Positions 10,471 to 61,960 of a stretch of 64,000 bases of DNA are shown one piece after another (position 1 is the first letter of the stretch; every line of letters begins with the position of its first letter). A model generated the notes under the pieces. It had not been told where the DNA came from. It saw only the letters and a program-made list of their open reading frames with translations, and did not search any database. Source of the stretch: Xanthomonas theicola (lineage in GTDB: Bacteria; Pseudomonadota; Gammaproteobacteria; Xanthomonadales; Xanthomonadaceae); assembly GCF_014236795.1 (NCBI RefSeq), contig NZ_CP049017.1:2644001-2708000 (forward strand), read 5' to 3'. The translations under genes and the position numbers were made by a program.

Positions 10471-10489
10471 CCCCGGCTCTAGGCCGGGG
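10471..10489 (+). terminator. hairpin after the integrase gene
   Basis: CCCCGGC, 5-base loop, GCCGGGG, 25 bp past the integrase stop. There is no T-run, so termination is possible but not certain. Confidence 0.45.
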
Positions 10490-10632
10490 TGAAATCAGGT
10501 CTTACATGATGGGTCTTAGGCTTGCGCCCATTGGAAGCCATCACCAACCTTGTCGCTATTCTACTGCACATCCGCCCGTCAGCGTCAACCCCGACCGCTG
10601 GCGGGCCGGGACACCGAAGGTTCCCCAACTGT

Positions 10633-12888: not shown

Positions 12889-12901
12889 CTCGCTTCCCGA
12901 A

Positions 12902-39511: not shown

Positions 39512-43703
<4,192 letters not shown>

Positions 43704-44060: not shown

Positions 44061-44279
44061 ATGGCGATCACCCCGGACGATACGACTCCCTATAAGGCCG
44101 TAGTCAATCACGAAGAACAGTATTCCGTCTGGCCCCTGGACCGGAACAACGCGCCAGGTTGGCGTGATACCGGGGTGTCGGGCACCAAGGCCGAGTGCCT
44201 GGCCTACATCGAGCGAGTGTGGATCGACATGCGGCCGTCGAGCCTACGTCAGCACATGCAAGACCAAGGTCTCGGTTGA
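44061..44279 (+). CDS. mbtH: MbtH-like protein
   Basis: A 72-residue MbtH-family chaperone. The family core is intact: [18 protein letters not shown], then [29 protein letters not shown] (NxExQYSxWP, PxGWxxxG, CLxxIxxxWTDMRP pattern). It binds and activates A domains. ATG 44061 has GAGGA 8 bases upstream; ATG 44055 is also possible. Four bases separate its stop from the NRPS start, so the two are co-translated. Confidence 0.95.
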
Positions 44280-44283
44280 CTCC

Positions 44284-47200
44284 GTGACCTCGCACGCCGA
44301 TCGGGGATCGCTGGCGGAGAAAAAAGCGGCGCTCTTGCAGAAGCTGCTGAAAACGCCGCTGCGGTCGACACCAGCCATTCAACCGAGGCCGCGCGTATTC
44401 AACGCTGGCCCGTGGCGAGCGCCCGCCTCGCGCGCGCAGCAGCGGTTGTGGTTCATCGACCGCATGGGCGATGCCATCCGGGCGTACTACATGTCCGTGT
44501 CGTTGCGATTCAAGGGCGCGTTGGATATTGAGACACTGCAGCACGCGCTTGACGCGCTAGTGGCGCGACACGAGTCGCTGCGCACGACCTTCGTGAACGT
44601 CGACGGCGAGTTGTTCCAGGAAATTGCGCCGCAGGGGCGCTTCTACATAGGACCAAGCGAGTCTTGTTTCGACCTCGAGACCGGGCCTCTGATACGGGGT
44701 CGGCTAACGCAGGTCTGCGTCGACGAGCACGTGCTCGACATCACCGTCCATCACATCGTCTCCGACGCGTGGTCCATCGGCGTGCTGACGCGCGAGCTCA
44801 TCGAGCTGTATGGCGCCCTCGACACACAACGCGAGCACCGGTTGCCGCCGGTGGCGGTGCAATACGCGGACTACGCGCACTGGGTCCGCCAACAGGACGC
44901 GATCGGCCCGCAGCTGGATTATTGGCGCGAGCGCCTGCGCGGGCTGCCGCCCGACATCGACCTGCCCACGGATCGGCCCTCTCCGGTCGCGCCGACGCAT
45001 CGTGGCGAGTCGGTCGAACTGGCGCTCGACGAAGCGCTCACCGCACGCGTGAAACATCTCGCGCAACGCCACGAGTTGACGCTGTACATGGTGCTGTGCA
45101 CGGCATGGGCCGTGTTGCTGTCGCGCATCTCGGGACACGCCGACATCGCTGTTGGCACGCAAGTCGCTGGCCGCGCGCGGCCCGAGATGGAAGGCACGAT
45201 CGGCGTGTTCGTGAACTCGCTCGTGCTTCGCGTCGGCGTGGACGCCAACGCGCGCGTCGACGAGCTGCTCCAGCACGTCAAGGCGGTGACGCTGGGCGCC
45301 TACGATCATCAGGACGTGCCGTTCGACCGGGTCGTCGAAGCGCTGCAACCACCGCGTAGCGTGACGCGCAATCCGCTGTACCAAGTCATGTTCGTCATGA
45401 CGAGCACGCCGCGGGGGGCGTTGCGTCTACCCCAGGCGACCGTCAGCGTGGAGTTCGGCAGCACGGGCTATGCCACCGTCGATCTGCTGCTGCTGCTCGA
45501 GGATTGCGGCTCCCGGGTTCAGGGCACCCTGGACTACGCCGTCGACTTGTTCAATCGCGACACCACCGAGCGCTGGCGCGATTGCTTCCTCGAAGTGCTA
45601 CGCGCCATGGTGCGGGACCCCGACGTGCGCGTTGGCGACCTTGGCGCGCTGCCCCCGGTGCAGCGTAGGCAGGTCCTCGAGCAGTTCAACGCCACCTGCG
45701 CCTCGTATCCACGCACGCAGTTGCTCCACGAATTGTTCGAAGAACAGGTGGCGCGCACGCCCCAGGCCACGGCGCTGATTCACCAGGGTCGCGTGCTGAC
45801 CTACGCGCAGCTGGACGCCAGGGCCGATCGACTCGCCGCGCGACTGCACGCGCAGGGGGTAGGTCCCGATCGATTGGTGGCCGTGCAGCTGGAGCGCGGC
45901 GCCGACATGGTGATCGCGTTGCTCGGCGTCTTGAAGGCGGGCGGCGCGTATCTACCGATCGACCCCGCGCTGCCTCACGACCGGCAGGCCTATATGCGCG
46001 AAGACGCGGCGCCCGCCGTGGTGCTGACCGACATAGAGACGGGCGAGCCGGCCCCGGTCGTCGCGCTCCGGAGAGCGACGCCGCTGAATCTGGCCTATGT
46101 GATCTACACGTCGGGCTCCACGGGCAAGCCCAAGGGCGTGATGATCCAGCACGAGAGCGTGGTCAACTTTCTAAGCTCGATGCGCGAACGGCCGGGCATC
46201 GAATCGTCCGACGTACTGCTCGCCGCGACGACGCTGTCGTTCGACATCGCGGGACTGGAGTTGCTGCTGCCGCTGCTGCATGGCGCCACGGTTGTGCTGG
46301 CGAACCAGGATGCGCGACAGCTGCTGCGCCTGATGGATGAGCACGCCATCACGATGATGCAGGCCACGCCCGTCACCTGGCGAATGCTGATCGACGCGGG
46401 CTGGCAGGGCCGGGCCAACCTCAAGGCGCTGTGCGGTGGCGAAGCCCTCACCGTGGACCTCGCACGACAGCTGATCGGCCGGGTCGGTTCCTTGTGGAAT
46501 CTGTACGGACCGACGGAAACGACCATCTGGTCCTGTGTCCATCAGGTCGCCGCGCCGACGCCCGATGACGGCCCGGTGGAGCCGATCGGCCGGCCCATCG
46601 CCAATACGCGCGTCTACGTGCTGGACAGCGCGTTGCAGCCGGTGCCCATCGGTGTCACCGGCGAGATATTCATCGCGGGAGACGGACTGGCGCGAGGCTA
46701 TCTCAACCGGCCCGCGTTGACCGCGGAGCGGTTTCTCGCCGATCCCTTCGCGTCGGGGCGCATGTATCGCACTGGCGACCTCGGCCGCTGGCGCGCGGAT
46801 GGCGCGTTGCGCTATCTCGGCCGCAACGACCGCCAGGTCAAGATTCGCGGCTTCCGCATCGAGATCGAGGAGATCGAGGCATGCCTGCGGCGGGACCCCC
46901 GCGTGAAGGAGGCGGTGGTGCTGCCCGCCGGCGACAGCCTCGTTGCATACCTGATCGGCCACGATGCCGACGTCGCTTCGCTCCGCGAGGGCCTGCGCGC
47001 GTGGCTGCCGGACTACATGATTCCGAACGCGTGGCGGTTCATGGAGCGTTTCCCGCTCACGCCCAGTGGCAAGGTCGATCGGAGCGCCTTACCGGCCCTG
47101 GACGGTCCGATCGCCGGCCGCGCTTCCTATGTCGAGCCTCGAACAGAGGCCGAACGCACCATCACCGACCTCTGGGCGCAAGTGCTCAAGATCGACGCGG

Positions 47201-48543
47201 TCGGCGTGCACGACAACTTCTTCGAGCTCGGGGGCCATTCGATGCTGGCGCTGCGAGCGTTGTACCGGATCAACGAGGCGCTCAGGAGCCAGTTGACCGC
47301 CGCCGACCTCTATCGCAGTCCGACGGCCGAAGCGCTTGCGCGCCGGCTCGATGACGGCGAGGTGGACGATCCGCGCATCGACCTGCAGCGCGAGGCCCGG
47401 CTGGATGCGGCGATCGTGCCTCATCCCGGGCACCGCCCGCTCGAGCCGCGATCGATCCTGCTGACGGGCGCCACCGGGTTCGTGGGTCGATTCCTGCTGG
47501 CGCAACTCCTCCATGACACGAGCGCCACCGTCCACTGCCTGGTGCGTGCGCGCTCGAACCAGGAGGCGTCGACGCGCCTGCGGGACGTGTTGACCACCTC
47601 GGGGCTTTGGCAGGACGACTGGGCCGACCGGGTCGTGGCCGTGCCCGGCGATCTGCGTGCGCCGCGCTTCGATGTCGAGGGCGTGGACACGGTCTATCAC
47701 TGCGCCACAAGGATGAACCATTTGGAGGCGTACGCGTCCGCCAAGCTGGAGAACGTCGCGGCCAGCGAGGCGCTCCTCCGCTATGCCACCGAGCGGTCGC
47801 CGAAAATCATTCATTTCATTTCCACCCTGGATGTGTTCAGCGCCGATACGCCCGGTGGCGCGGAGCGACGCGTCGCCGAGCACACGCCGATCGACCACGA
47901 GGTCCATCGCGAAAGCCAGGGCTACACTGCCAGCAAGTGGGTCAGCGAGAAGCTGTTCCTGCTGGCCCAGGAACGCGGCATCCCCTGCAATATCTTCAGG
48001 TTGGGACTGGTGTGGGCGGACGCCCAGCAGGGTCGCTACGATCCCCTGCAGCGCGAAGACCGCATCCTGCGCTCCTGCCTGGAATCGGGCTACGGCATCC
48101 AGGACTACCACTACGACCGACCGCCGATTCCGGTCGACTACCTGGCTAGCGCGGTCGTGCGCCTCGCGAACAAACAGGCGGAAGGGGGCGGCGTCTTTCA
48201 CGTCGCCGCTCGGGAACAAATGCGGGAAGGGGTCTTCGAGCGGTGCAACGCCATCGCCGACACGAATCTGGAACTGCTCCCGCTGTATGAGTGGACCCGT
48301 GCGATCCAGCGTCTCCACCTGCAGGGCCGCGACCTGCCCATCGTACCGCTGATCGAACCCTCGTTCGCACTGGACGAAGACGCTTTCTACGCAATGGAGC
48401 GAGCGCAGACGCGCAAGCCGCGCTTTGACTGCGCGCGCACCCACGACCTGCTCGAGCGCGAGGAACTGCCCATACCGGCATTGAACGACGACCTGCTACG
48501 GACCTGCGTCAGACACCTTTTGTCTCTGGAGAATCGACGATGA
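44284..48543 (+). CDS. NRPS, C-A-T-R (glycine-type A domain, reductive release)
   Basis: A 1419-residue single-module synthetase starting at GTG 44284. C domain about 40-470 with His156-His157-IVS-Asp161-Ala (DA where most have DG). A domain about 500-930 with YVIYTSGSTGKPKG and YGPTETTIWS; its specificity residues read by eye against GrsA are D-I-L-Q-L-G-L-I-W, which equals the glycine code as I remember it. Carrier domain with phosphopantetheine Ser986 in FFELGGHSML. Reductase domain from about 1055: NADPH loop LTGATGFVGRFLLAQLL and active Tyr1214-x3-Lys1218 in GYTASKWVSEK. The R domain would release the chain as an aldehyde or alcohol. No thioesterase. With no loading start of its own, it needs an upstream NRPS, presumably the 50.6-57.4 kb protein. 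Confidence 0.92.
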   Translation: MTSHADRGSLAEKKAALLQKLLKTPLRSTPAIQPRPRVFNAGPWRAPASRAQQRLWFIDRMGDAIRAYYMSVSLRFKGALDIETLQHALDALVARHESLRTTFVNVDGELFQEIAPQGRFYIGPSESCFDLETGPLIRGRLTQVCVDEHVLDITVHHIVSDAWSIGVLTRELIELYGALDTQREHRLPPVAVQYADYAHWVRQQDAIGPQLDYWRERLRGLPPDIDLPTDRPSPVAPTHRGESVELALDEALTARVKHLAQRHELTLYMVLCTAWAVLLSRISGHADIAVGTQVAGRARPEMEGTIGVFVNSLVLRVGVDANARVDELLQHVKAVTLGAYDHQDVPFDRVVEALQPPRSVTRNPLYQVMFVMTSTPRGALRLPQATVSVEFGSTGYATVDLLLLLEDCGSRVQGTLDYAVDLFNRDTTERWRDCFLEVLRAMVRDPDVRVGDLGALPPVQRRQVLEQFNATCASYPRTQLLHELFEEQVARTPQATALIHQGRVLTYAQLDARADRLAARLHAQGVGPDRLVAVQLERGADMVIALLGVLKAGGAYLPIDPALPHDRQAYMREDAAPAVVLTDIETGEPAPVVALRRATPLNLAYVIYTSGSTGKPKGVMIQHESVVNFLSSMRERPGIESSDVLLAATTLSFDIAGLELLLPLLHGATVVLANQDARQLLRLMDEHAITMMQATPVTWRMLIDAGWQGRANLKALCGGEALTVDLARQLIGRVGSLWNLYGPTETTIWSCVHQVAAPTPDDGPVEPIGRPIANTRVYVLDSALQPVPIGVTGEIFIAGDGLARGYLNRPALTAERFLADPFASGRMYRTGDLGRWRADGALRYLGRNDRQVKIRGFRIEIEEIEACLRRDPRVKEAVVLPAGDSLVAYLIGHDADVASLREGLRAWLPDYMIPNAWRFMERFPLTPSGKVDRSALPALDGPIAGRASYVEPRTEAERTITDLWAQVLKIDAVGVHDNFFELGGHSMLALRALYRINEALRSQLTAADLYRSPTAEALARRLDDGEVDDPRIDLQREARLDAAIVPHPGHRPLEPRSILLTGATGFVGRFLLAQLLHDTSATVHCLVRARSNQEASTRLRDVLTTSGLWQDDWADRVVAVPGDLRAPRFDVEGVDTVYHCATRMNHLEAYASAKLENVAASEALLRYATERSPKIIHFISTLDVFSADTPGGAERRVAEHTPIDHEVHRESQGYTASKWVSEKLFLLAQERGIPCNIFRLGLVWADAQQGRYDPLQREDRILRSCLESGYGIQDYHYDRPPIPVDYLASAVVRLANKQAEGGGVFHVAAREQMREGVFERCNAIADTNLELLPLYEWTRAIQRLHLQGRDLPIVPLIEPSFALDEDAFYAMERAQTRKPRFDCARTHDLLEREELPIPALNDDLLRTCVRHLLSLENRR

Positions 48544-49301
48544 GCGCACTCAGCGCGGTGTTTTACCGCAACTATCTGTTGCGCCGGAAGAATCCTTTTC
48601 TGATGTTCTGGGATGTCGTGGCGCCCATCGCCTACCTGTTGCTGTTCGGCATCGGCTACGAACAGCTGCTGGGCGGGGGGCTTGAGATCGACGGCGAGCA
48701 CGTTCGCTACACGACGTTCCTGGTTTCGGGCGTGCTCGGACTGGTGACCTTCGGCATCGCGGTCAACACGTCCTGGAGCTTTTTCATGGACCGGGATTCG
48801 GGCATGGCCGAGGAGATGCTCACCTATCCGCTCACCCGGCCCCAGATCCTGCTCGGCAAGCTCGCGTTCAACATCGCGCTCGCCCTGGCGAGCTCCACGC
48901 TGGTTCTCCTGGTCGGGGGATTGGTGACGGACATTCCCGTGCGGCCGGAGATGCTGCCGCTGATCCTCGCCGTGACGATCCTGTCGCAGACCACCCAGTT
49001 CTTCGTCTTCGACATGGTGGCCATCAAGATCAACCAGATGGACGCCTACAACGCCGTCGTCGGCGTGCTGTACGTGCTGCTGATGTTCCTGAGCCCGATG
49101 TTCTATCCGCTGACCGACATGCCGCTCTGGTTCAAGGTCGTTTCCTACCTCAACCCCATGACGTGGCAGATCGACCTGCTGCGCTTCGCCCTGCTCGGCG
49201 TAGGCGACCCGCAGCAGCTTCTCATCGAGGGCGCTGCGCTGGTGGCGGTCACCGTCGCGGGCGTGGCGATCGGTCTGCGTTCGCTGCATCACCAACCCTG
49301 A
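48540..49301 (+). CDS. ABC-2 type permease (first of two paralogues)
   Basis: A 253-residue protein with six membrane helices of the ABC2_membrane family, NodJ/DrrB-like: FYRNYLLRRKNPFLMFWDVVAPIAYLLLFG at the start and LSPMFYPLTDMPLWFKVVSYLNPMTWQIDLLRFALLG near the end. Overlaps the NRPS stop (ATGA). It is clearly related to the permease at 58524-59285, which has the ATPase gene. No ATPase lies here, so it probably shares that one, forming a heterodimeric exporter for the product. Confidence 0.9.
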   Translation: MSALSAVFYRNYLLRRKNPFLMFWDVVAPIAYLLLFGIGYEQLLGGGLEIDGEHVRYTTFLVSGVLGLVTFGIAVNTSWSFFMDRDSGMAEEMLTYPLTRPQILLGKLAFNIALALASSTLVLLVGGLVTDIPVRPEMLPLILAVTILSQTTQFFVFDMVAIKINQMDAYNAVVGVLYVLLMFLSPMFYPLTDMPLWFKVVSYLNPMTWQIDLLRFALLGVGDPQQLLIEGAALVAVTVAGVAIGLRSLHHQP

Positions 49302-49323: not shown

Positions 49324-50376
49324 GTGCACGCCATGGACTCATACACCCGCACCGGCCGCTGGAATCCCGACGATCTCGACTACCGTGCACTGGTGAACGA
49401 ATGGCACGTCGTGGCGAAGACCACGGAAGTGACGGCGGACCAGGCCTTCCCCTGCACGCTGCTGGGTGAGAAACTGGTGCTGTGGCGCTCGGCCGGTACG
49501 CTGCTGGCCTGGGCCGATCACTGCCCCCACCGGGGCGCGCCGCTGTCGTTGGGCCGCATCAACAACTGTCGGATCGCCTGCCCCTATCACGGCTGGGAGT
49601 TCGATGCCGACGCCCGTCGGGTGCACGTGCCTGCGCACCCCGAGCTGACGAAGGCCGTCGACACGCCGATCCGCCGGTTCGCGGTGGCCGAGCGCTGCGG
49701 CTTCGTGTGGGTGTGCATCGGCGAGCCGCGCGGCGACATCCCGCGCATTCCCAAGTTCGACGACCCGAGCTTCCGCAAGAGCTATACCGGGCCGTACCTG
49801 TTCCGGGCGAACGCGCTTCGCTGCATCGACAATTTCATCGATGCCACGCACTTCCCTTTCGTGCATTCCGGCATCAACGGTCGCCCCGAAGCGCCGGACA
49901 CGACGATCGACTACCAGGTGACCGAGCACGACGGCGAGCTGCAGACCTCCGAGTTCTCGGTGGTCCAGCCGGATGCCGACGCGCGCGGCATCCAGCTCCA
50001 GGTGCGCTATCGCTACTACTGCCTGGCGCCGACGGTGGCCTATTCCGACAAGGATACCGGCTCCGGCGAACACTGGTTCACGTGGGCCGCCGTCACACCC
50101 GTGGACCGCGACGCGTCCAAGTTCTGGCTGCTCATGTGCTTCAATCACGCGGCGGAGATTCCGCAGCAGGACATCGAACGCCGCCAGTCGCGGATCTTCG
50201 ACGACGGCGATCGCTGGATCGTCGAGTCGCAGCGGCCCGTGCAGATGCCGCTGGGCATCTCGCCCGAGATGCACGTAAAGAGCGACCGTCTCGGTGTCGC
50301 CTACCGCAAGTGGGTCTACCGGCTGGCCATGGCGAACGCGGCGCCGGTCGCCGCCACGGAAACCGAACCGGCGTGA
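49324..50376 (+). CDS. Rieske non-haem iron oxygenase
   Basis: A 350-residue oxygenase. Rieske [2Fe-2S] domain: CPHRGAPLSLG and CPYHGWEFD (Cys-x-His-x17-Cys-x2-His). Mononuclear iron site: NFIDATHFPFVH (Asp and two His in NxxDxxHxxxxH). Close in layout to PobA/VanA-type single-component terminal oxygenases, which need a separate reductase, not seen here. Likely tailors the peptide by hydroxylation, desaturation or demethylation. Start GTG 49324 has GAGG 8 bases upstream; ATG 49333 is the alternative. Confidence 0.9.
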   Translation: MHAMDSYTRTGRWNPDDLDYRALVNEWHVVAKTTEVTADQAFPCTLLGEKLVLWRSAGTLLAWADHCPHRGAPLSLGRINNCRIACPYHGWEFDADARRVHVPAHPELTKAVDTPIRRFAVAERCGFVWVCIGEPRGDIPRIPKFDDPSFRKSYTGPYLFRANALRCIDNFIDATHFPFVHSGINGRPEAPDTTIDYQVTEHDGELQTSEFSVVQPDADARGIQLQVRYRYYCLAPTVAYSDKDTGSGEHWFTWAAVTPVDRDASKFWLLMCFNHAAEIPQQDIERRQSRIFDDGDRWIVESQRPVQMPLGISPEMHVKSDRLGVAYRKWVYRLAMANAAPVAATETEPA

Positions 50377-50586: not shown

Positions 50587-53500
50587 TTAGACAGGCAGGG
50601 CGAGCGTGGCGTCGATCTCCTCCGCGGAAAGCGAGTCGACATAAGCCAGCACGGCCTGCTCCACGATCGCCGCGAGCCCGGCAACCGTGGGCGCGCCGAA
50701 GAAGTCGCGCACCTGCACGGCGACCTGGTAGGCGTCCTTGATCCGCATGAGCACCTGCACCGACTTCAGCGAGTTGCCGCCGAGGTTGAAGAAGTTGTCG
50801 CTACGACCGACGCGTTCGAGCTTCAGCACCTTTGCCCACAACGCCGCCAGTTCCACTTCGAGTTCCGATCGAGGCGCTTCGTAGGTGGATCGCGCGGTGA
50901 AGTCGCTCTTGCTCGGCGCCGGTAGGCGTTGGCGGTCGAGCTTGCCGGAGGGCGTGAGCGGCAGATCGTCCATGAAGATGTACGCCGCGGGCAGCATGTA
51001 GTGAGGCAGCACGCTCTCCGCGTGAGCCGCCAGGTCCTGCGCGGACCGGCTGTCGCTCACGACATAGGCCAGCAGCTCGGCGCCGCCACTTGTATCCGTC
51101 CGCACGCTGACGGCGCACAGCCGCACCGTGGAATGGCGCGACAGCACAGCCTCGATCTCGGCGATCTCCACCCGGCATCCGCGGATCTTGACCTGCGTGT
51201 CGATGCGACCGACGTACTCGATCTGCCCATCCTCCAGGAAACGGCCGAGGTCGCCGGTGCGATACAGGCGCTCGCCTGGTTCGAGCGCGTACGGATGGGC
51301 GACGAACCTCTCGGCCGTCAGCGCGGGGCGGTTCTGGTAGCCTCGCGCCAGGCCGTCGATGCCCGCCACGCAGATCTCCCCCGGCACGTACGGGGGCACC
51401 GGATTCAGCGCCGCGTCGAGCACGAACAACCGATAGATGCCGTTGGGGCGACCCACGGGCACCGTGGCGGACTCGCTCCACTCCGAGCCCGTCCACAACG
51501 CAACCTCGGCGGTCTCCGTCTGGCCATAGGTGCTATGGAACTCACTCTGCGTGAAGTGCTGCTTGAAGCGCTCCAGCAGCCGCGCGGGCATCGCCTCACC
51601 CGTCACGGCGAGCCATTGGAGGTCCGGATACACCCGGGGCGGCGCATAGCTGAGATACGCATCCAGCATGGAGGGCACGAAATACGCGAACGCGGTGCCG
51701 GGCGCGGCGAGCAGCTCGCCGAGGTGCATGACGTCGGATTCCGCCCGCGCGTCCGCCATGAGGATGGTGGCGCCGGCCATCAGCGGGCCGAAGATCTCCC
51801 AGATGGACAGGTCGAAGATCAGCGGTGTCTTCAGGACCACCCGATCGCCCACCGCCAGCGGATAGCGCCGCCGCAACCATTCCAGCCGGTTCATGACGCC
51901 CCGGTGCTCGAGCACCACGCCCTTCGGCGCGCCCGTCGAGCCCGACGTGTAGTACACGTAGGCGATGTTCTGGGCCGCGACGGGGACGTCGAGGTTGGTG
52001 TCGTCCCCGTCGAGGGGTTCGGCCAGTTCCTGCGCGGTCAGGAGCATTTTCAGGCGCGCGTCGGCCGCGATGGTGCGGACGCGCTCGCTCGGGAAATGCG
52101 GGTCGAGCGGCACGAAGCCCGCGCCCGCCTTGAGTACGGCCAGGATCGCCGTGACCATCTCGACGGACCGCTCCACGGAAATGCCAACCAGCGATTCCAC
52201 GCCGACGCCCGCGGCGACGAGCCGCCGCGCCAATCGGTTCGCCCTGGCGTTGAGCGCGCGATAGCTCACCGCCGCGCTCGTCGTCTGGATCGCGATCTCG
52301 TCCGGCGTACGCCGTGCCTGCGCTTCGAAGCGCACGTGGGCCGGTTGCAAGTCCGGGTATCGCGCGAAGCCGCTGTTGGAACGGCGAATCAGCGCGTCGC
52401 ACTCCGCCCGCGTCGCCATGGGCAGCGCGTCGAGCGGCGTCGATGGCGCCTGGGTCGCGGCGGTCACCACGTTGAGGAACGCCGCGACGAAACGCTGCGC
52501 CTCGCCTTCGCTCAACCGATCGGTGCTGTATTCCAGCTCGCCGCGCAGGCCTTGCGCACCCGAGCGGATCGAGCAGGTCACATCCACCTTCGAGGTGCCG
52601 GAGTGAACGATCACCTCCTCCACGGACGCCGCGCCGAGACGCTGCGTTTCATCGAGCGGAATCGTCTGCATCACGAACATCGCCTGGAACAGCGGGTTGC
52701 GGCTGCCCTCGCGCGCGCAGTCCCCCTGCGCCTCGACGATCTCGTCGAACGGCAGTTCCTGATGGGCCAGCGCGGCGGCCAGGCGCTCGGCCGTCTGCTC
52801 CACCAGGTCACTGAACCGCATCTGCGACGTGAACGTCATCCGCAGCGGCAGGGTGTTGGCAAAGAAGCCCACGACGCCTTCCGTCTCCGGCAGCGACCGA
52901 CACGCCACCGGCACGCCGATCACGAGCTGGTCCTGGCGCGTGTACCGATGCAGCGTGGCCAGGAACGCGCTGAGCAGGATCACGTACTCGGTGGTGCCAT
53001 GCCGCTCGGCGGCCTGCCGGGTGGCGTGGGTCGAGACGGCATCGAACGGACACAGTTCCATGGCCCCACGCGTGGTTTGCTCGGCCTGTGGCCCGCCGCG
53101 GCGCCCGAGTTGCAGCAACGGCAACTCGCCGGCGAGCTCCTGCCGCCAGAAGGCGCGCTGCACATCCGCCGCCGCGCTCGACAGCCAGGCGCGTTGCCAC
53201 TGCGCATAGTCGGCGTACTGGAACGCCGGCGGCGGCAGCGGTTCGGCGCCAGCGTAGAGCGCCATCAGCTCGCGCCAGACGACGGCCAGCGACCACGCAT
53301 CCCACATCGCGTGATGGAAATTGACGAACCATAGGGCTTGGTCCTCGGCGATGTGGATGCACAGGGAGCGCACCAGCGGTGCCGCGGTGAGATCGAACGG
53401 CACGCTGGCTTCGGCGTTGGCCACGGCCAGCGCCTCGGCGAGGCTGTTGGCGCTCAGGCGGCGTGAGCGGATCTCCATGGGCGCGGCGATCTCCTGCCAG

Positions 53501-56500
53501 AGTTCGGTGTGGTCCGTCGCCACCAGTGCCGTGCGCAGGGCCTCGTGCCGGGCCACGATCTCGGTCATGCAGCGGTCCAGCCGCTCGACCGAGAAGGGCC
53601 CCTTGAGGTGATAGGCCAACGGCACGGAATACGCCGCGCAATGTTGCAGCTTGTCCAGGAACCACAGGCGCTGCTGGGCGTTGGAGGCGAATCGACGCGA
53701 GGACGCCACCCGGGTGAGCTTCGGCGCCAGGCCGCCCGCCACGGGCGAGCCCGCGCGCAGCGCCTGCGTCAGCCCGCGGATCGTCCGGTCGCGGAAGAAG
53801 GCGGTGACGTTGAGCTCGACCCCGGTCAACGAGGACAGCCGGGAAAGCAGGCGCAACGCGCGTAGCGAGTCGCCCCCCACCAGGAAGAAATCCTCGTCGA
53901 CGGATTGAGGCACGCGACCGGTGTCCTGCGTCCAGAACCGGGCAACCGTTTGCTCCAGCTCGTCCGCGTGGGCGATGCCGGGTGTCACCAGCTCGGGCGC
54001 GGGCAGGCGCGCCCGATCGACCTTGCCGTTGGCGTTGATCGGGAGCGTGGCCAGCGCGGTGATCGACGCCGGCATCATCTGTCGCGGCAGGATTCGCGCC
54101 AGATGCTCGCGAAGGTGGCTTTCGACGAAGTCGTTCGCCACGACGTAGGCCGCCAGTCGCGTGCCCTCGGTGGCGGATTCGTAGACCACGACGACGGCTT
54201 CACGCACGTGCGGATGCCGCTCGAGCGCGCGCTCCACCTCGCCCAGCTCGATGCGATGGCCGAGGATCTTCACCTGCCGATCGCGGCGGCCAAGGAACTG
54301 AATGTTGCCGTCCGCCAGCACCCGCGCGAAGTCGCCCGTCTTGTAGAGACGCGAGCCCGGCGCGCCGTAGGGATGGGGAACGAATTTCTCGGCGGTCAGC
54401 GCCGGCTGTCCAAGGTAGCCGCGCGCCAGTCCCACGCCGGCGATGCACAACTCACCGACCTCGCCGGCCGCGACGGGCAGCCCCTGCTCGTCGAGGAGGT
54501 GGACGTACATGTTGCTGATGGGACGTCCGATAGAGAGATCCTCGGGTCGGCTCATCGGTGGCGCCGCGTACACCGTGCAGCTGATCGTCGCTTCCGTCGG
54601 ACCGTATTCCTGCATCCACTGCACGTTGCGCGTGGCGTCGATCTGGCGCCATTGCCGGAACTTCTCCAGGCTCACCGCCTCGCCACCCATCATCACCAGA
54701 CGCAGCGTCTGCGGCCACTCTTCCGGGGGACGCTGCGACATGTCGCCGACCCAGAAGTGCCAGTACGCGGTGGTGATGTTGATCACGGTGATGCGCTGGT
54801 GGATCAGGAAGCGCACGAAGTCGCGCGCCGATGGCAGCTTCTCCGCCAGGGGGAACAGCGCGGCCCCCGTGATGAGCGGCACGAGGATTTCCTCCACCGA
54901 GCCATCGCCGTTCAGCGGCAGTATCTGCAGCATGCGATCCGCAGCCGTCATGCGCAGCGCGCGCTGCATGTGGAGCGCGTGATTGACCAGCCCGTCGTGC
55001 GCAACCGTCACGGCCTTGGGCTTGCCCGTCGAGCCCGACGTGAACATGACATACGCCAGGTTGCGCGGGTCGACGCCACTGCGGGGATTGTCGAGCGAGG
55101 ATTCCGCGATCGCCGGCCAGTCCCCATCGAGGCAGATCGACCGGGCAAGGCCGGCAGGCAGGCGATCGACGAAACGTTGCTCGGTCACGACCAGCGTCGC
55201 GGCCGTGTCCTGCAGCATCATCTGGATGCGCTGAGGCGGATGCTCGGGATCGAGCGGTACGTAGGCGGCGCCCGCCTTCAGGATGCCCAGCAGTCCGACG
55301 AGGGCATTGGCGGACCGCTCCATGCACAGGCCCACGACGACCTCGGGACCCGCGCCCAGTCCCCGCAGATGGTGCGCAAGCTGGTTGGCACGCGCGTTGA
55401 GCGCCGCGTAGCTCACGGACTCGCCCTCGAACCGGACCGCGAGCGCATTGGGCATGCGCGTCACCTGGGCTTCGAAGCGCTCGTGGATCACGCGCGCCTC
55501 GAGCGCGCAACCCAGCGCCTTTTCGACCAGCGCGCGATCGCCGGCCTCGCTGCGTCGCGCCAGTTCGATCGCGGCCAGCCGCTGATCGGTGGCATTGCGG
55601 TCCTGCGATAACTTGAACCGCCCCACCAGCTCGTCGATCTCGAGTTCCAATCCCACAATGTAGGGGAGAATGCGATCCACCACCGGCAGACCCACGTCGA
55701 GCCGGTACGCGTCGGGGCGCGTATCGGTCTCCGCGATGCTCTCCAGGCCCCGCAACAGCCCCTCGCGCGTCTCCACGAGTCGAACGCGGCCACGGACATG
55801 CACGCTGATCGAGTTCCAGGTCGGCAATTGCTCGGTTGAGTAAACGCGCGGTGAGATGTAGGCGTTCGGGCCGTGGAACACGGCCAGCACCGGCTTGCCC
55901 GCAAGCACGTCGAGATGCGGGTTGGCGCGATCCATGTGGCCGAACAGCACGCCCTTGGCGCCTTTCGTGCGATCGAGGATCAAAGGCACATGGGTGACGA
56001 TCGGCTCGTCCTGGTCCGCGGAGATCAACGTCGCGAACCGGCAGTGCTCCAGCACCGCGTACAGCTTCTCGGGATCGTTCTCGAGATGCCGCTTCGGCGG
56101 GTACTGGCCGTCCTTCATCCGCTGCATGGGTAGCGGGTACGTCGACGAGCGGAACATATCGTTGAAGATGTCGCGCGAGCGGAAGGGCAGCAGCGACAGC
56201 AGGGTGTCGCCTAGCCCGTGCGAGCCTTCGCCATAACCCTGGACGTACAGCCCGGCCAACACCTCGGGCTGCGTTTGGACGCGATAGTGCTTCGTCAGGC
56301 TGGGCGCTCCCGACGCGCCACGCTGCACAAACGGCAACACGGCGCCGAAGATCTCGGAATCGAGCGTGCGCTCGTAGCCCGTGGCCAGCACGAAGCCGTC
56401 GAACGAGGTTTCCTTCGACTCCGGGCCATGACGATCCCGACTCGTGACGAGGACGCGCCGGTCGTCGGCATCGAGCGCGACCAGGGTGGCGAAGCGATGA

Positions 56501-57396
56501 AAGGTCAGGCGACGCTCGCCCTTCACGCGGTCCATGTAATCGCAGTCGTAGATGGCGTCGATCAGTTCGGGCGCGACCACACCGTAGTTCGTGCTGCGCA
56601 GCTCCTGCCGCAGCACCGCGCGCTTGTCGTCGCTGGCATCGTGGAAGGCCTCCATCTCGGAGAACATGAACGCTTCGTTGACGAACGGGCTGCGATCGAC
56701 CGGCCGCATCGCGTAGCCATTCAGGTACGCATGCACCTGCGCCCGAGGATAGCGCTGCAACAGATACAGCACGATCTCGCCGGCGCTCTGACCATCGCCC
56801 ACCACCCCGAAGCAATACGAACCTTCGCTGTCGGGGAAGCGCTGTGGGAAGCGATGCAGAAAGTCGTTGGAGTGAATGACGTTCTCGGTGTTCGAGCCGG
56901 TGATCGACGGGTAGCGCGGCTTGCCGCCGGCGGCATACACGACGTTGCGGGTCAGAGAGTGCGAGCTCATGCCAGTGGCGAGATCCTCCACTTCCACCTC
57001 GAACAGGTCGGCGCGTGGCGTCACGCGCCGAACCGCCGCACCATAGCGCACCTGGTCGGCGAACGCCGCGGCCACCCAACGCAGGTAGTCACGGTATTCC
57101 CATCGCGTGGGATGAAAGTTGCCCAGGTTGACGAAATGCTCGAGACGTCCCTTGGCCTGTGTGTAACGCAGGAAGCTGAATGGACTGGCTGGATTGCGCA
57201 GCGTCGCCAGATCCTTCAGGAAGGAGATCTGCATCCGTGAACTGTCGAACAGCATCCCCGGGTGCCAGTCGAACGACGCACGACGCTCGAAGAACAAGCC
57301 ACGTTTCTTGGGATCGATCTCCTTCGCGGCGACCGCGAGCGAGAGATTCGAGGGGCCGAAGCCCACGCCCACAAAATCCAGCACGTCCTTCGACAC
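50587..57396 (-). CDS. megasynthase: N-monooxygenase - PaiB/KtzT-like domain - A - T - C - A - T
   Basis: About 2269 residues from GTG 57396, which has AAGGA 8 bases upstream (longer in-frame start at 57447 possible). (1) 1-425, ornithine/lysine N-hydroxylase of the SidA/PvdA/KtzI class: FVGVGFGPSNLSLA for FAD, GVVGDGQSAGE for NADPH near 200, LATGY near 340. (2) 432-630, PaiB (FMN_bind_2)-fold domain: GHMDRANPH with His487, AVFHGPNAYISP, PTWNSISVHVRGRV; piperazate synthase KtzT is a haem enzyme of this fold. (3) A1 640-1130 (YVMFTSGSTGKPKA; code D-G-E-N-M-G-E-I-S). (4) Carrier Ser1177. (5) C 1230-1660, HHAMWDA. (6) A2 1680-2180 (YVYYTSGSTGAPKG; code D-L-W-Y-A-T-T-E-V). (7) Carrier Ser2209. 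No C domain at the start and no release domain, so it should begin the chain and hand over to the C-A-T-R protein. Confidence 0.9.
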   Translation of the reverse strand: MSKDVLDFVGVGFGPSNLSLAVAAKEIDPKKRGLFFERRASFDWHPGMLFDSSRMQISFLKDLATLRNPASPFSFLRYTQAKGRLEHFVNLGNFHPTRWEYRDYLRWVAAAFADQVRYGAAVRRVTPRADLFEVEVEDLATGMSSHSLTRNVVYAAGGKPRYPSITGSNTENVIHSNDFLHRFPQRFPDSEGSYCFGVVGDGQSAGEIVLYLLQRYPRAQVHAYLNGYAMRPVDRSPFVNEAFMFSEMEAFHDASDDKRAVLRQELRSTNYGVVAPELIDAIYDCDYMDRVKGERRLTFHRFATLVALDADDRRVLVTSRDRHGPESKETSFDGFVLATGYERTLDSEIFGAVLPFVQRGASGAPSLTKHYRVQTQPEVLAGLYVQGYGEGSHGLGDTLLSLLPFRSRDIFNDMFRSSTYPLPMQRMKDGQYPPKRHLENDPEKLYAVLEHCRFATLISADQDEPIVTHVPLILDRTKGAKGVLFGHMDRANPHLDVLAGKPVLAVFHGPNAYISPRVYSTEQLPTWNSISVHVRGRVRLVETREGLLRGLESIAETDTRPDAYRLDVGLPVVDRILPYIVGLELEIDELVGRFKLSQDRNATDQRLAAIELARRSEAGDRALVEKALGCALEARVIHERFEAQVTRMPNALAVRFEGESVSYAALNARANQLAHHLRGLGAGPEVVVGLCMERSANALVGLLGILKAGAAYVPLDPEHPPQRIQMMLQDTAATLVVTEQRFVDRLPAGLARSICLDGDWPAIAESSLDNPRSGVDPRNLAYVMFTSGSTGKPKAVTVAHDGLVNHALHMQRALRMTAADRMLQILPLNGDGSVEEILVPLITGAALFPLAEKLPSARDFVRFLIHQRITVINITTAYWHFWVGDMSQRPPEEWPQTLRLVMMGGEAVSLEKFRQWRQIDATRNVQWMQEYGPTEATISCTVYAAPPMSRPEDLSIGRPISNMYVHLLDEQGLPVAAGEVGELCIAGVGLARGYLGQPALTAEKFVPHPYGAPGSRLYKTGDFARVLADGNIQFLGRRDRQVKILGHRIELGEVERALERHPHVREAVVVVYESATEGTRLAAYVVANDFVESHLREHLARILPRQMMPASITALATLPINANGKVDRARLPAPELVTPGIAHADELEQTVARFWTQDTGRVPQSVDEDFFLVGGDSLRALRLLSRLSSLTGVELNVTAFFRDRTIRGLTQALRAGSPVAGGLAPKLTRVASSRRFASNAQQRLWFLDKLQHCAAYSVPLAYHLKGPFSVERLDRCMTEIVARHEALRTALVATDHTELWQEIAAPMEIRSRRLSANSLAEALAVANAEASVPFDLTAAPLVRSLCIHIAEDQALWFVNFHHAMWDAWSLAVVWRELMALYAGAEPLPPPAFQYADYAQWQRAWLSSAAADVQRAFWRQELAGELPLLQLGRRGGPQAEQTTRGAMELCPFDAVSTHATRQAAERHGTTEYVILLSAFLATLHRYTRQDQLVIGVPVACRSLPETEGVVGFFANTLPLRMTFTSQMRFSDLVEQTAERLAAALAHQELPFDEIVEAQGDCAREGSRNPLFQAMFVMQTIPLDETQRLGAASVEEVIVHSGTSKVDVTCSIRSGAQGLRGELEYSTDRLSEGEAQRFVAAFLNVVTAATQAPSTPLDALPMATRAECDALIRRSNSGFARYPDLQPAHVRFEAQARRTPDEIAIQTTSAAVSYRALNARANRLARRLVAAGVGVESLVGISVERSVEMVTAILAVLKAGAGFVPLDPHFPSERVRTIAADARLKMLLTAQELAEPLDGDDTNLDVPVAAQNIAYVYYTSGSTGAPKGVVLEHRGVMNRLEWLRRRYPLAVGDRVVLKTPLIFDLSIWEIFGPLMAGATILMADARAESDVMHLGELLAAPGTAFAYFVPSMLDAYLSYAPPRVYPDLQWLAVTGEAMPARLLERFKQHFTQSEFHSTYGQTETAEVALWTGSEWSESATVPVGRPNGIYRLFVLDAALNPVPPYVPGEICVAGIDGLARGYQNRPALTAERFVAHPYALEPGERLYRTGDLGRFLEDGQIEYVGRIDTQVKIRGCRVEIAEIEAVLSRHSTVRLCAVSVRTDTSGGAELLAYVVSDSRSAQDLAAHAESVLPHYMLPAAYIFMDDLPLTPSGKLDRQRLPAPSKSDFTARSTYEAPRSELEVELAALWAKVLKLERVGRSDNFFNLGGNSLKSVQVLMRIKDAYQVAVQVRDFFGAPTVAGLAAIVEQAVLAYVDSLSAEEIDATLALPV

Positions 57397-57585
57397 GTCT
57401 CCATTCCTTACTAAAGTGGTGGCGAGGCCGCAGGGTAGTGACGCCATATGTCAGAGAGACGACACTTGAAAAGCAGAGAATCGCCCTGCGTATGCGTCCA
57501 CAAATCTGTCACGACCAGCACCTGAATCCGTCATGAAAAACGCCATATCGTATGGGCCCTCTCCACACAGCCTGCTCGAGTGACA
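57397..57585. promoter_or_regulatory. divergent promoter region of the biosynthetic cluster
   Basis: 189 bp between the megasynthase (minus) and the ABC ATPase (plus). AT-richer than the flanks; it must hold both promoters. The direct repeat CGCCATAT at 57444-57451 and 57541-57548 may be a regulator site. Confidence 0.5.
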
Positions 57586-58527
57586 ATGACCAGCGCCATC
57601 GTCGTCGACGATTTAAGGAAGGAGTACACGTCCAAGGCTGGCACTCCGGTAACCGCCCTGGGCGGCGTGTCGTTTGAGGTACCCATGGGACACATCTTTG
57701 GCTTGCTGGGCCCCAACGGCGCCGGCAAGTCCACCATGGTCAAGATTCTCGGCACGGTCAGCACGCCGAGTTCCGGTAGCGCCCGGATCTTCGGCCACGA
57801 CGTGGTGCGCGCCCCATTGGCCGCGCGTAAGAAGATGGCGGTGGTGCTCCAGCAGACCGCTTCCGAGAACATGCTGAGTGTTCACGAGAACCTGTTGATC
57901 TACGGCTATCTTCACGGCCTGTCGCGCATCGACGCGAAGGCCCGCGCACAGCGGGTGATCGAGGAGTTCGAGCTCGGAGACTCAGTGAAGAGCATGGTGC
58001 AGGAGCTGAGCCTGGGCATGAAGCGGCGCGTGCAGATCGCCAAGATCTTCATGCTCGACACACCGCTCATCATCCTCGACGAGGCGACGACCGGCATGGA
58101 CCCCATGATGAAGCGTCGCATGATGGATCGGCTGCGCGCCGAGGCGCGCAGCGGTCGCACGATTCTGCTCACCACGCAGATCCTGAGCGAGGCGGAAGAA
58201 CTCTGCGAGACCATCATGATCGTCGACAAGGGCCGTGCCATGGCGTCGGGCACCTTACAGGAACTGCGCAAGCGCTCCGCGCAGATGTTTCGCGTGGCGC
58301 TGTCGTTCGGCGACACCGACGAGGATCTCGAGCAACTGCTGCAGTCGCTGCATCCGGCGCAACTGGACATCAAGGGTCGCAGCGCCGAGATGGTGATCCA
58401 CGGCGAGGAAGCATCGCTGCTATCCAGGCTCGGCGAGGTCTCGCGTCGCGCGCCGATCCAGCAGTTCGAGGTGCGCGGCCCGACGCTTGAGGAGATCTTC
58501 ATGCACCTCGTGAAGGAGGCGACATGA
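57586..58527 (+). CDS. ABC transporter ATP-binding protein (drug/natural-product exporter)
   Basis: A 313-residue ATPase of the DrrA/NodI group. Walker A is GPNGAGKST, the signature LSLGMKRRVQIA and Walker B PLIILDEATTGMDP, with a long C-terminal extension (about 230-313) typical of DrrA-like subunits. ATG 57586 chosen; GTG 57580 is possible. Overlaps the permease gene by ATGA. The likely engine for both permeases in the cluster. Confidence 0.93.
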   Translation: MTSAIVVDDLRKEYTSKAGTPVTALGGVSFEVPMGHIFGLLGPNGAGKSTMVKILGTVSTPSSGSARIFGHDVVRAPLAARKKMAVVLQQTASENMLSVHENLLIYGYLHGLSRIDAKARAQRVIEEFELGDSVKSMVQELSLGMKRRVQIAKIFMLDTPLIILDEATTGMDPMMKRRMMDRLRAEARSGRTILLTTQILSEAEELCETIMIVDKGRAMASGTLQELRKRSAQMFRVALSFGDTDEDLEQLLQSLHPAQLDIKGRSAEMVIHGEEASLLSRLGEVSRRAPIQQFEVRGPTLEEIFMHLVKEAT

Positions 58528-59285
58528 GCGGCATCGGCGCCGTCTTCTATCGCGACTACCGGCAGCGCCGCAACAACCTCACCCTGATCATCTGGGATCT
58601 GCTGGCGCCATTGGCCTACCTGCTGCTGTTCGGCGTCGGCTTCGAACGCATGATGGGCGGCACGCTGAGGCTGGACGGACAGCAGCTCGGCTATACGGCG
58701 TTCCTGGTCGCCGGCGTGATCTCCATGGTGACGTTTTCCGTGGCGATGAACAGTTCCTGGAGCTTTTTCTCGGACAAGGAATCAGGCATCGCGCAGGAAC
58801 TGCTGACCTATCCGGTGCGGCGCGAGCACATCCTGATCGGCAAGATCGGCTTCAACGTGGCGATGGTGCTGCTGGGATCGATCATCGTCGTCGCCCTCGC
58901 GGCCATGCTGCTGCACGTCCCCGTGCGATGGAGCCGGCTGCCCATCCTGGCCCTGGCCATCGTGACCGCGACGGCCGGCTGGTTTTTCGTGTTCAGCGCC
59001 TGTGCCATTGCCATCTCGCGCATGGATGTGTTCTACGGCGTGACCAGCGCCGCGTTCCTGATCTTCATGTTCTTCAGCTCGATTTTTTATCCACTCAGCG
59101 GCGTGCCCGCGTGGTTCAAGGGGCTGGCCTACGCGAATCCGCTCACCTGGCAAACCGATCTCACGCGCTTTGCGCTGCTCGGCACAGGTGATCCCACCAC
59201 GATGCTATACGAGGGCGCCGCCCTGATCGCGTTCTGCGCGGTGTGCCTGGTTGTCGCCGTGCGCTATCTGAATCGAGGCGTTTGA
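58524..59285 (+). CDS. ABC-2 type permease (second paralogue)
   Basis: A 253-residue six-helix permease, same length as and aligned throughout with the one at 48540: AVFYRDYRQRRNNLTLIIWDLLAPLAYLLLFGVGFERMMGG and the end NPLTWQTDLTRFALLGTGDPTTMLYEGAAL. Coupled to the ATPase gene. The two copies probably come from an old duplication and may pair in one exporter, which would also protect the producer. Confidence 0.92.
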   Translation: MSGIGAVFYRDYRQRRNNLTLIIWDLLAPLAYLLLFGVGFERMMGGTLRLDGQQLGYTAFLVAGVISMVTFSVAMNSSWSFFSDKESGIAQELLTYPVRREHILIGKIGFNVAMVLLGSIIVVALAAMLLHVPVRWSRLPILALAIVTATAGWFFVFSACAIAISRMDVFYGVTSAAFLIFMFFSSIFYPLSGVPAWFKGLAYANPLTWQTDLTRFALLGTGDPTTMLYEGAALIAFCAVCLVVAVRYLNRGV

Positions 59286-59287
59286 CC

Positions 59288-60910
59288 ATGAGCCCTCCAC
59301 GCCCTCTCGACGCCATCGTCGTCGGCGCCGGCTTCGCGGGGCTTTACATGCTCCACAAGCTGCGACAGCTGGGATTGAACGCGCTCGTCCTCGAGGCGGA
59401 GCCGGAGGTCGGCGGCGTCTGGTACCGCAACCGCTATCCGGGCGCGCGCTGCGACATGGAAAGCCTGGTGTATTCCTATTCCTTTTCCAGCGAACTGGAG
59501 CAGGAATGGCACTGGCAACAGCGCTTCGCCGGCCAGCCCGAGATCCTGAGCTACCTGCGGCACGTCGCGGACCGCTTCGCGCTGCGCGACCACATCCGGT
59601 TCGAGACCCGCGTCGTATCGGCACGGTTCGACGGCCAGTGGACCGCCACGACCGACAATGGCGAGCGCCATTGCGCCCGCTTTCTCATCATGGCGACGGG
59701 TTGCCTGTCGACGACGCACACGCCCGCGCTCCAGGGCCTGGAGACGTTCGCCGGCGCCTGCTTCCATACGAGCCAGTGGCCGCACGAGCCGGCGGATTTC
59801 GCGGGTCGGCGGGTCGGCGTCATCGGCACCGGGTCCTCGGCCATTCAGTGCATCCCGTTGATCGCGCAGCAGGCGGCGCATCTGACGGTGTTTCAGCGCA
59901 CGCCCAATTTCAGCCTCCCCGCCAACAACGCAGCGCTGGACGATGCGTTCGTCCAGCAGTTCAAGACGAACTATCCGCGCTATCGGGAGATGGTGCGCAA
60001 AGGTGAGCTGTTCGGCGACGGAGACCTGTGCGTGCCGGTCGAGGCGTTGGATCCGCCGCCGGTCAACGTCGGCGAGGCCAGGCCGGAGGCGGTCGAGCGT
60101 GCCTATGAGGACCGCTGGCGGCGCGGCGGCGGCTTCTTCATCGGCGCGTTCGCCGACATCATGAACACCGACGAAGCCAATCACACGGCCGCGGAGTTCG
60201 TGCGCGGGAAGATCCGCTCGATCGTGCAGGATCCGCGCGTCGCCGAGGTACTGTCCCCGACGGATCATCCTCTCGGGGCGAAACGCCTTTGCCTCGATAC
60301 CGACTATTACGCCACGTTCAACCGGGAGAACGTGACCTTGGTGGACCTGCGGTCCGATCCCATCCAGGCGGTCACCCCGACCGGCGTGCGACTGGCGAGC
60401 GGGGAGGTCGCGCTCGACGCGCTGGTCCTGGCCACCGGCTTCGACGCCGTCACCGGAGCGCTGCTGGCCATCGATTTCGAGAGCACCACGGGCGAGCCGC
60501 TGCGCGAGCAGTGGCGAGACGGACCCCAAACCTATCTGGGCCTCGGCATCGCCGGCTATCCGAACCTTTTCACGATCACCGGACCCGGCAGCCCGTCGGT
60601 CCTGAGCAACACGGTCAACTCCATCGAGCAACACGTCGAGTGGATCGCCGACTGCCTGGACTACATGCGCCAGCGCCAACTGACGCGCATCGAACCGACG
60701 CGCGCGGCCGCGGACGACTGGGGCCGGCAGGTGGACGCGGCGGCGGAGCCGTGGCTCTACAAAAAGGCGACGAATTCTTGGTATCTCGGCGCGAACATCC
60801 CCGGCAAACCGCGGGTGTTCGTGCCCTACGTGGATAGCGGCGGCGCCTATCGGAGCATCTGCGATCGGGTCGCCGCGCAGCACTACAGCGGTTTCATTTT
60901 CGAGTCGTAG
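59288..60910 (+). CDS. Baeyer-Villiger-type flavin monooxygenase
   Basis: A 540-residue FAD/NADPH enzyme. FAD motif GAGFAG at residues 13-18; the type I Baeyer-Villiger fingerprint FxGxxxHxxxWP is exact at Phe154-Pro165 with His160; NADPH motif GVIGTGSSAIQ follows; DALVLATGFDAVTGALLAID is the second linker motif. Likely inserts oxygen beside a carbonyl or oxidises a heteroatom in the peptide product. Start at ATG 59288, 2 bp after the permease stop. Part of the plus-strand operon from 57.6 kb. Confidence 0.93.
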   Translation: MSPPRPLDAIVVGAGFAGLYMLHKLRQLGLNALVLEAEPEVGGVWYRNRYPGARCDMESLVYSYSFSSELEQEWHWQQRFAGQPEILSYLRHVADRFALRDHIRFETRVVSARFDGQWTATTDNGERHCARFLIMATGCLSTTHTPALQGLETFAGACFHTSQWPHEPADFAGRRVGVIGTGSSAIQCIPLIAQQAAHLTVFQRTPNFSLPANNAALDDAFVQQFKTNYPRYREMVRKGELFGDGDLCVPVEALDPPPVNVGEARPEAVERAYEDRWRRGGGFFIGAFADIMNTDEANHTAAEFVRGKIRSIVQDPRVAEVLSPTDHPLGAKRLCLDTDYYATFNRENVTLVDLRSDPIQAVTPTGVRLASGEVALDALVLATGFDAVTGALLAIDFESTTGEPLREQWRDGPQTYLGLGIAGYPNLFTITGPGSPSVLSNTVNSIEQHVEWIADCLDYMRQRQLTRIEPTRAAADDWGRQVDAAAEPWLYKKATNSWYLGANIPGKPRVFVPYVDSGGAYRSICDRVAAQHYSGFIFES

Positions 60911-60919: not shown

Positions 60920-61960
60920 GTGAGCATTGAACGAGATTTGATCGAGGCGACCCAGCCGATTCGTGGTTTCGTGCTGGCCTCTACGGTCTACCATTTCTTC
61001 GACCAGGGCGTGTTCGATCGCCTGCGCGAGCGGGGGCCGGCGCCGGTCGCGACCCTGGCCTCGGCGCTGCGGCTGAGCGAGAAAAAGCTGCGCGGGCTGC
61101 TGGATTTCCTGGTCAACGAGAACGTCCTGGCGCGTGGCGAGGCGAACGACTACGCCCTGACATCCAAGGCGCACCAACTGGCGCGCTTTCGCGGCTGGTA
61201 CACGATGCTCATCGGCGGATACGGTCACACGTTTCTGCAGATGGGACCCGTGCTCGGCGTCGAAGCGCCCTGGGCCAGCAGGGACGCCGCCAAGGTCGGC
61301 ATCGGCAGCTGCCAGATCAGCCACTACGACGCCATGCCGCTGACGCGCTCGCTGATGGCGCGGGCGCCCGGTCGCAAGCGCAACCTGCTGGACCTGGGGT
61401 GCGGCAACGCGCTGTATCTGGCGGAGTTCTGCCAGGCCAATCCCGACCTGTACGCGCTGGGCGTGGAGCCCGATCGCGGCGGCTATGAAGCCGGGCTCGA
61501 GACGATTCGCCGCCATGGCCTGGAGGAGCGCGTCTGGCTGGTCAACCTGGGCGCGGTCGAGTTCATGCGCAGCGAGATCGACTTCGACCCGGACTTTCTG
61601 ATCCTCGGCTTCGTGTTGCATGAAATCGTCGGCTCGGAGGGCAAGGACGGCACGGTGCGCTTCCTGCGCTCGATCGTCGAGCGCTTTCCGCAGATCCGAC
61701 TGATCGTGATCGAGGTGGACGATCGCTGGGACGATCCGGGCGTCATGCAACACGGCCTCTCCCTGGCCTACTACAACGCCTACTACCTCCTGCACGCCTT
61801 CACGCGGCAGCAACTGCTGCCGCACGCCGAGTGGCTGGAGCTGTTCGCGACCGCGGGTCTGGAGGTGCTGGCGACGGAGTCGACGGCCGAGCAGGTTGAT
61901 TCCACGCGCCTGGAGATCGGCTACCTCCTGCGCGCCGCCGGTGAGCATCGCCATGAGTGA
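60920..61960 (+). CDS. SAM-dependent methyltransferase, 2-ketoarginine methyltransferase-like
   Basis: A 346-residue methyltransferase with an N-terminal dimerising winged-helix domain (residues 1-100; EATQPIRGFVLASTVYHFFDQGVFDRL) and a Rossmann SAM domain (LLDLGCGNALYLAEFC near 155). The layout resembles MrsA/2-ketoarginine and phenylpyruvate C-methyltransferases, which methylate the beta carbon of 2-oxo acids. The next gene is an aminotransferase, which would return such an oxo acid to a beta-methyl amino acid. GTG 60920 follows AAGGA by a few bases. Overlaps the aminotransferase by 8 bases. Family closeness is from memory; O-methyltransferase is the alternative. Confidence 0.8.
   Translation: MSIERDLIEATQPIRGFVLASTVYHFFDQGVFDRLRERGPAPVATLASALRLSEKKLRGLLDFLVNENVLARGEANDYALTSKAHQLARFRGWYTMLIGGYGHTFLQMGPVLGVEAPWASRDAAKVGIGSCQISHYDAMPLTRSLMARAPGRKRNLLDLGCGNALYLAEFCQANPDLYALGVEPDRGGYEAGLETIRRHGLEERVWLVNLGAVEFMRSEIDFDPDFLILGFVLHEIVGSEGKDGTVRFLRSIVERFPQIRLIVIEVDDRWDDPGVMQHGLSLAYYNAYYLLHAFTRQQLLPHAEWLELFATAGLEVLATESTAEQVDSTRLEIGYLLRAAGEHRHE

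Follow-up and report, generated by a model that had tools for sequence, protein, structure and literature searches.

The window analysed here, a 64,000-nucleotide stretch of the Xanthomonas theicola genome, encodes a single-chain protein, NRPS1. In it an N-hydroxylating flavin monooxygenase (NMO) domain is followed by a PaiB-fold domain and then by the A-T-C-A-T domains of a peptide synthetase. With a probability of roughly 0.4, we read NRPS1 as a protein that N5-hydroxylates ornithine, closes the N–N bond at a haem and yields a piperazate-type residue as free amino acid, which one of the protein's A domains, more probably the second, would then load. The NMO-PaiB didomain is already known; what appears new here is its fusion to A-T-C-A-T in the same chain. 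Our search of the literature, covering open-licence papers only, found no NMO-PaiB didomain fused to a two-module synthetase.

Domain layout and relatives of NRPS1

The open frame runs on the minus strand from 57447 to 50587, has no internal stop and encodes 2286 amino acids from its first ATG. The database form is 2269 residues long, which makes the GTG at 57396, with a purine-rich stretch just upstream, the likely start of NRPS1 (50587..57396). The NMO domain (56137..57390) is followed by the PaiB-fold (FMN_bind_2) domain (55549..56103), A1 (54004..55476), T1 (53773..53970, limits approximate), C2 (52390..53685), A2 (50923..52329) and T2 (50665..50850), all on the minus strand. Pfam returns the order Lys_Orn_oxgnase (residues 22-359), FMN_bind_2 (449-605), AMP-binding, PP-binding, Condensation (1255-1686), AMP-binding and PP-binding; the T domains were placed by motif search. 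The same kind of search found the core motifs looked for intact: GVGFGPSN, GDGQSA and LATGY, two copies of TSGSTG, HHAMWDA in C2, GGDS in T1 and GGNS in T2. The seven domains that a first-pass annotation had described in one chain are thus borne out in order and coordinates.

Chance or an artefact is very unlikely, since eight further proteins of 2312-2368 amino acids are colinear with NRPS1 from end to end at 54-73% identity (7,982 word-sharing candidates scored). Their sources are jgi, lgn, ena and one gammaproteobacterial MAG, and by carrying the whole chain they establish NRPS1 as a member of a real gene family. No NMO-PaiB didomain was found beyond the genome itself in 398 genomes of the order (1e-60), and the 369 class and 398 phylum genomes (1e-90), samples that overlap with that of the order, again gave this genome alone. 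Across 20 genomes of the genus, the remaining matches to the didomain are PaiB-like proteins or fragments of 28-37% identity. NMO-PaiB didomains as such are common: PF13434 and PF04299 occur together in 120 of 120 among the matches listed, of 1,473, from a search in which scoring was confined to the 8,000 candidates with most words in common. These 120 free didomains and the nine synthetase-fused proteins make up the 129 rows used for the residue counts below.

The NMO domain has the SidA/IucD/PvdA-class features, with FAD and NADPH motifs, LATGY and a PF13434 score of 318.5 bits (cut-off 21.3). Its best solved relatives are PvdA (3s5w, E 2e-79) and KtzI (4tlx, E 4.5e-78), followed by MbtG and SidA, and its predicted model likewise matches SidA, KtzI and PvdA. 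The SidA/KtzI class to which it had been assigned at the outset is therefore confirmed. We take K107, N293, N323 and S469 of SidA to be its contacts to ornithine, and all four are kept in the alignment of the NRPS1 domain. Lysine is also a possible substrate, as MbtG lies in the same score range.

Residues and phylogeny of the PaiB-fold domain

His487, counted from the GTG (H504 from the ATG; 55936-55938 in the window), aligns with the haem-ligand position, His61 of the piperazate synthase (PZS) SbPZS, the residue to which the first-pass annotation had pointed. His61, Asn66 and the Thr102/Lys173 dyad are all present, a set that does not discriminate because PaiB and NohD have it in common. PaiB is described as binding haem with the same ligand and dyad while making no N–N bond (PMC13274692). 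His61 and Thr102 are found in 129 of 129 rows, didomains among the matches listed plus fused proteins, and Lys173 in 127 of 129; all nine fused proteins keep ligand and dyad.

The residues that set PZS apart are missing. At SbPZS positions 7, 63, 100, 150 and 178, where all four PZS of solved structure carry Y, N, A, Y and K/Q, the NRPS1 domain has H, D, L, V and R. Expressed as exchanges, N63, A100, F105 and Y150 of PZS become D, L, S and V. D177 of NRPS1 is also the residue of SbPZS, a match to one PZS only. Tyr155 of PipS, which corresponds to position 150 by alignment, contacts the free alpha-carboxylate (PMC13274692). The PZS of the lydiamycin cluster departs at this position as well (His).

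Compared with the known piperazate systems KtzI and KtzT (kutzneride), PipS, SbPZS and LnzB, the NRPS1 didomain is alike in NMO class, fold, haem ligand and Thr/Lys dyad. It differs in that those enzymes are separate proteins and that identity in the PaiB fold is 30-35%. PaiB (2ol5, 9vyc) and a PaiB-like protein of the same genome share fold and haem ligand with it but are free-standing and carry N177/H178. Related proteins exist elsewhere in the genus for this PaiB-like protein (G000:C1:1641989-1642555), which stands apart from PZS in the tree. Structural comparison ranks PaiB best (Z 18.9) and an NohD row next (18.1), a gap of less than 1.

NohD is named an N-hydroxylamine dehydratase in its PDB titles, and one set of entries (9oqs and variants) contains the protein together with haem and N-hydroxylated ornithine. 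According to these titles, NohD variants were changed at the sites matching 7, 63, 100, 150 and 177-178, and the residues swapped in are Y, N, A, Y and E-Q. Since these are PZS residues, our own reading of the titles, for which we found no paper, is that the variant set represents an attempt to convert the dehydratase into a PZS. The NRPS1 domain, with H, D, L, V and D-R at these sites, has none of the swapped-in residues. Wild-type NohD has A63, V100, R150, D177 and L178. NRPS1 resembles it in fold, haem ligand, dyad, a bulky residue at 100 (L) and D177, the sole exact match, and differs from it at 63, 150 and 178, with D, V and R. The free didomains among the matches listed have L100 in 120/120, R150 in 105/120, D177 in 91/120 and L178 in 20/120, and thus mostly share Arg150 and D177 with NohD, plus the bulky residue at 100. 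L100 and D177 are kept in all nine fused proteins, whereas the Arg150 of most free didomains is replaced by V, A or S in eight of the nine; the fused protein P0009 retains Arg.

In a tree of 61 rows, including 29 of the 129 didomain and fused rows, the PaiB-fold domains of the didomains, together with the fused proteins and a Mycetohabitans protein, split from PaiB, PZS, NohD and the PaiB-like proteins of the genus with support 96/90. The Mycetohabitans branch in this group is long (1.95), and the program flags long-branch joins. PZS and NohD, the latter represented by an engineered variant, group together (100/100), and the NRPS1 domain lies outside the PZS clade.

The published chimeras keep piperazate the leading reading despite these residues. 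For natural NMO-PZS didomain chimeras, L-Piz formation is reported both in vitro and in actinobacteria (PMC11705231), and production through chimeric NMO-PZS in engineered actinobacteria is described as feasible (PMC12150314). PMC7347517 states that the residue patterns of 11 such chimeras differ from those of stand-alone enzyme pairs. NRPS1 has their layout, an N-hydroxylase followed directly by a PaiB-fold domain in one chain; unlike these free didomains of actinobacteria (Hu et al. 2019), it adds A-T-C-A-T to the same chain. A targeted search of 1,092 candidates found no NMO fused to a PZS-clade domain and only five PZS-A fusions. From this we infer that the published chimeras probably belong to the clade of the NRPS1 didomain. 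Synthesis of piperazate on board, as originally proposed, therefore stays plausible through the chimeras but is still a prediction, as the domain falls outside the PZS clade and has other residues than PZS at 7, 63, 100, 150 and 178.

Substrate codes, cluster content and related loci

The A-domain codes are D-G-E-N-M-G-E-I-S-K for A1 and D-L-W-Y-A-T-T-E-V-K for A2. Neither is a published Piz code, DVF(S/T)V(A/G)(A/S/P)YAK (PMC10888640 and PMC9866976), with at most 3/10 agreement for A1 and at most 2/10 for A2. Among the codes of PMC12283262, A1 is nearest to ornithine-type codes, at 6/10 with DGECTGGITK and 6/10 with the ANPA/Orn code DVETLGGISK. Its agreement with the arginine consensus of that paper is 5/10, which does not single out arginine for A1, because A3 of the neighbouring synthetase NRPS2 scores equally.

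NRPS2 (44164..48543, plus strand) is a C-A3-T-Red protein ending in a thioester reductase. The code of A3, D-I-L-Q-L-G-L-I-W-K, is presumably a glycine code. Five of eight letters agree with the glycine code DILQVGWV given in PMC10888640.

The other cluster genes in the window are also on the plus strand. They encode an ABC-2 permease (DrrB-like, 48540..49301), a Rieske oxygenase (49324..50376), a DrrA-like ABC ATPase (57580..58527), a further ABC-2 permease (58524..59285) and an FMO/BVMO-like flavoprotein (59243..60910) whose match to a BVMO-type model is far below the cut-off. A 2-ketoarginine methyltransferase (60920..61960) scores 458.3 bits against TIGR04543 (cut-off 425), a model matched in none of 14 control genomes. 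The following aminotransferase (61896..63125) has TIGR04544 (beta-methylarginine) as its best family match at 307.7 bits, under the cut-off of 350, and is likely the partner of the methyltransferase. An SDR (62911..63798) comes next. Past the window end, to about 67460, come another SDR, a type II thioesterase and a TonB receptor. Of 20 genomes of the genus, one gave a match to the TonB gene (1e-60) and 18 gave one to the PHO4 gene that lies beyond it; with a transposase gene on the left side, the cluster looks like an island.

The methyltransferase would fit the basic-type code of A1, and with a methylarginine-type supply in the cluster A1 most simply takes arginine or methylarginine. A1 may thus load (methyl)arginine, which leaves A2 for the product of the NMO-PaiB didomain. 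A2 is more probably its carrier than A1, although the A2 code has no published Piz match. Loading of piperazate through the adjacent A domain, A1, the simplest form of the original proposal, thus finds no support.

Two further features of the window were recorded. About 150 bases at 43560-43710, adjoining a DDE transposase (42898-43536), have 12 more copies of at least 138 bases in the same genome at 92-99% identity. A frame of 906 amino acids with an Ulp1/C48 protease domain (4309-7029, plus strand) has 48.6% GC, against 64-71% in neighbouring 2-kb steps, and is a candidate acquired secreted effector.

Of the other didomain loci, up to 10 kb on either side was covered, or 18 kb in the case of L096, while the sequences of L016 and L020 stop early. 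Seven of 13 such loci have an A domain like A2 in the vicinity, at 48.6-52.2% identity: L017, L019, L021, L022, L024, L025 and L096. None of the A domains read near these loci carries a published Piz code. His61, the haem ligand, is missing from six of six didomains of type B (L019-L024), yet the A1-C2-A2 order is found nearby in four of these six (L019, L021, L022, L024), so not every cluster of this kind depends on haem chemistry. The L020 locus stops behind A1, and within 10 kb of L023 there is no A domain. The type-B clusters of Dactylosporangium, Catellatospora and Actinomadura (L021, L019, L022) resemble NRPS1 in a didomain near an A-C-A synthetase, with 51-52% identity in A2 and 43% in C2. 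They differ in having separate genes and no haem ligand, and a desaturase-like gene stands beside the L021 didomain.

The megaplasmid of Mycetohabitans rhizoxinica offers another comparison. When 14 genomes or records were searched for a close relative of the Rieske protein, Mycetohabitans alone gave one. Its operon has a Rieske gene (47% identical), then, with one gene between, an NMO gene and a PaiB-like gene with LPTWN. In contrast to NRPS1, these are separate genes without a fused synthetase, and their neighbours are DABA-transaminase-like and 4HPA-hydroxylase-like. The full order at 7913-14005 of this locus (L095) is 4HPA-hydroxylase-like, Rieske, DABA-transaminase-like, NMO and PaiB-like, and the operon possibly makes a diaminobutyrate-based N–N or N-oxidised unit.

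A separate group of proteins joins a PZS-clade domain to an A domain behind it. P0131-P0135 (721-751 amino acids; Nonomuraea, an Umezawaea MAG and metagenomes) all five have the code DVQFTGHMVK, which is likely a further Piz code. In Streptomyces, two didomains (L014, L018) have A domains close by with the code DIQFAAHAVK, 6/10 like it.

Competing readings and the proposed product

In the pathway that we favour, the NMO domain would N5-hydroxylate ornithine, and the PaiB-fold domain with haem would close the N–N bond. A1-T1 would carry arginine or beta-methylarginine and A2-T2 the new residue, after which C3-A3-T3 of NRPS2 would add glycine. The Red domain would release the tripeptide as aldehyde or alcohol, the Rieske and BVMO-like proteins may tailor it, and the DrrAB-like pump would export it. 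The piperazate step is partly supported: didomains are common, chimeras are reported to make L-Piz, and His487 and the dyad are kept. Against it stand the separate clade, the five PZS sites, a residue 100 nearer to the Val of NohD, the haem of PaiB that makes no N–N bond and the lack of a published Piz code in A1 and A2.

The same residues bear on the reading that the PaiB-fold domain is a haem dehydratase like NohD, turning N5-hydroxyornithine into a delta-imine and then a semialdehyde or pyrroline that enters the peptide. The NohD entries with haem and N-hydroxylated ornithine, the NohD-like residues of the free didomains and L100 with D177 throughout the fused family speak for it, as does the dehydration of some non-native substrates reported for PipS (PMC11705231). 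D177 does not favour NohD, being the SbPZS residue too, R150 is absent from eight of nine fused proteins, and NohD, as an engineered variant, groups with PZS and not with the didomain clade. Primary metabolism supplies a semialdehyde or pyrroline without any hydroxylation. With the L-Piz reported from NMO-PZS chimeras (PMC11705231, PMC12150314) also set against it, we consider dehydration unlikely.

Use of N5-hydroxyornithine as such, in a siderophore of hydroxamate or other type with a structural, regulatory or spent PaiB-fold domain, is doubtful to a further degree. The ornithine-type best matches of A1, the TonB barrel gene of the island and the type-B didomains without haem ligand fit this picture. 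The TonB barrel, however, scores 93.6 bits against a siderophore-receptor model, far under the cut-off of 223.5; the window holds no match to the Fur-box consensus at up to 3 mismatches; no acyl- or formyltransferase was found among the frames scanned; and ligand and dyad are intact in all nine fused proteins. Quite improbable is ring closure on the carrier, with A1 loading ornithine or hydroxyornithine onto T1 and the PaiB-fold domain acting on the thioester. It would draw on the ornithine-like code of A1 and on position 150, the carboxylate contact, going from Tyr in PZS through Arg in most free didomains to V, A or S in the fused proteins. Arg150 is nevertheless kept in P0009 and missing from 15 of 120 free didomains among the matches listed, the lydiamycin-cluster PZS has His there, and the methylarginine genes offer A1 another substrate. 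To explanations of other kinds we give very little weight. As a speculative extension, improbable as it stands, the PaiB-fold domains fused to N-hydroxylases could form a third functional group of haem enzymes beside PZS and NohD; in the nine-member family one would have become part of a peptide synthetase, and on-line ring closure of a hydroxyornithine unit would lead to a new kind of tripeptide of beta-methylarginine, an N–N residue and glycinal.

The methylarginine-type genes, the Rieske protein and reductive release point to a small peptide, for which we found no description in the open-licence literature. If the piperazate reading is true, one protein would produce its unusual building block and also put it to use, perhaps with channelling between the two steps as originally suggested. 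Together, the free didomains and the nine fused proteins provide a comparison set for N–N closure versus dehydration on the PaiB-fold haem site, a question just opened by the structures of NohD and PZS.
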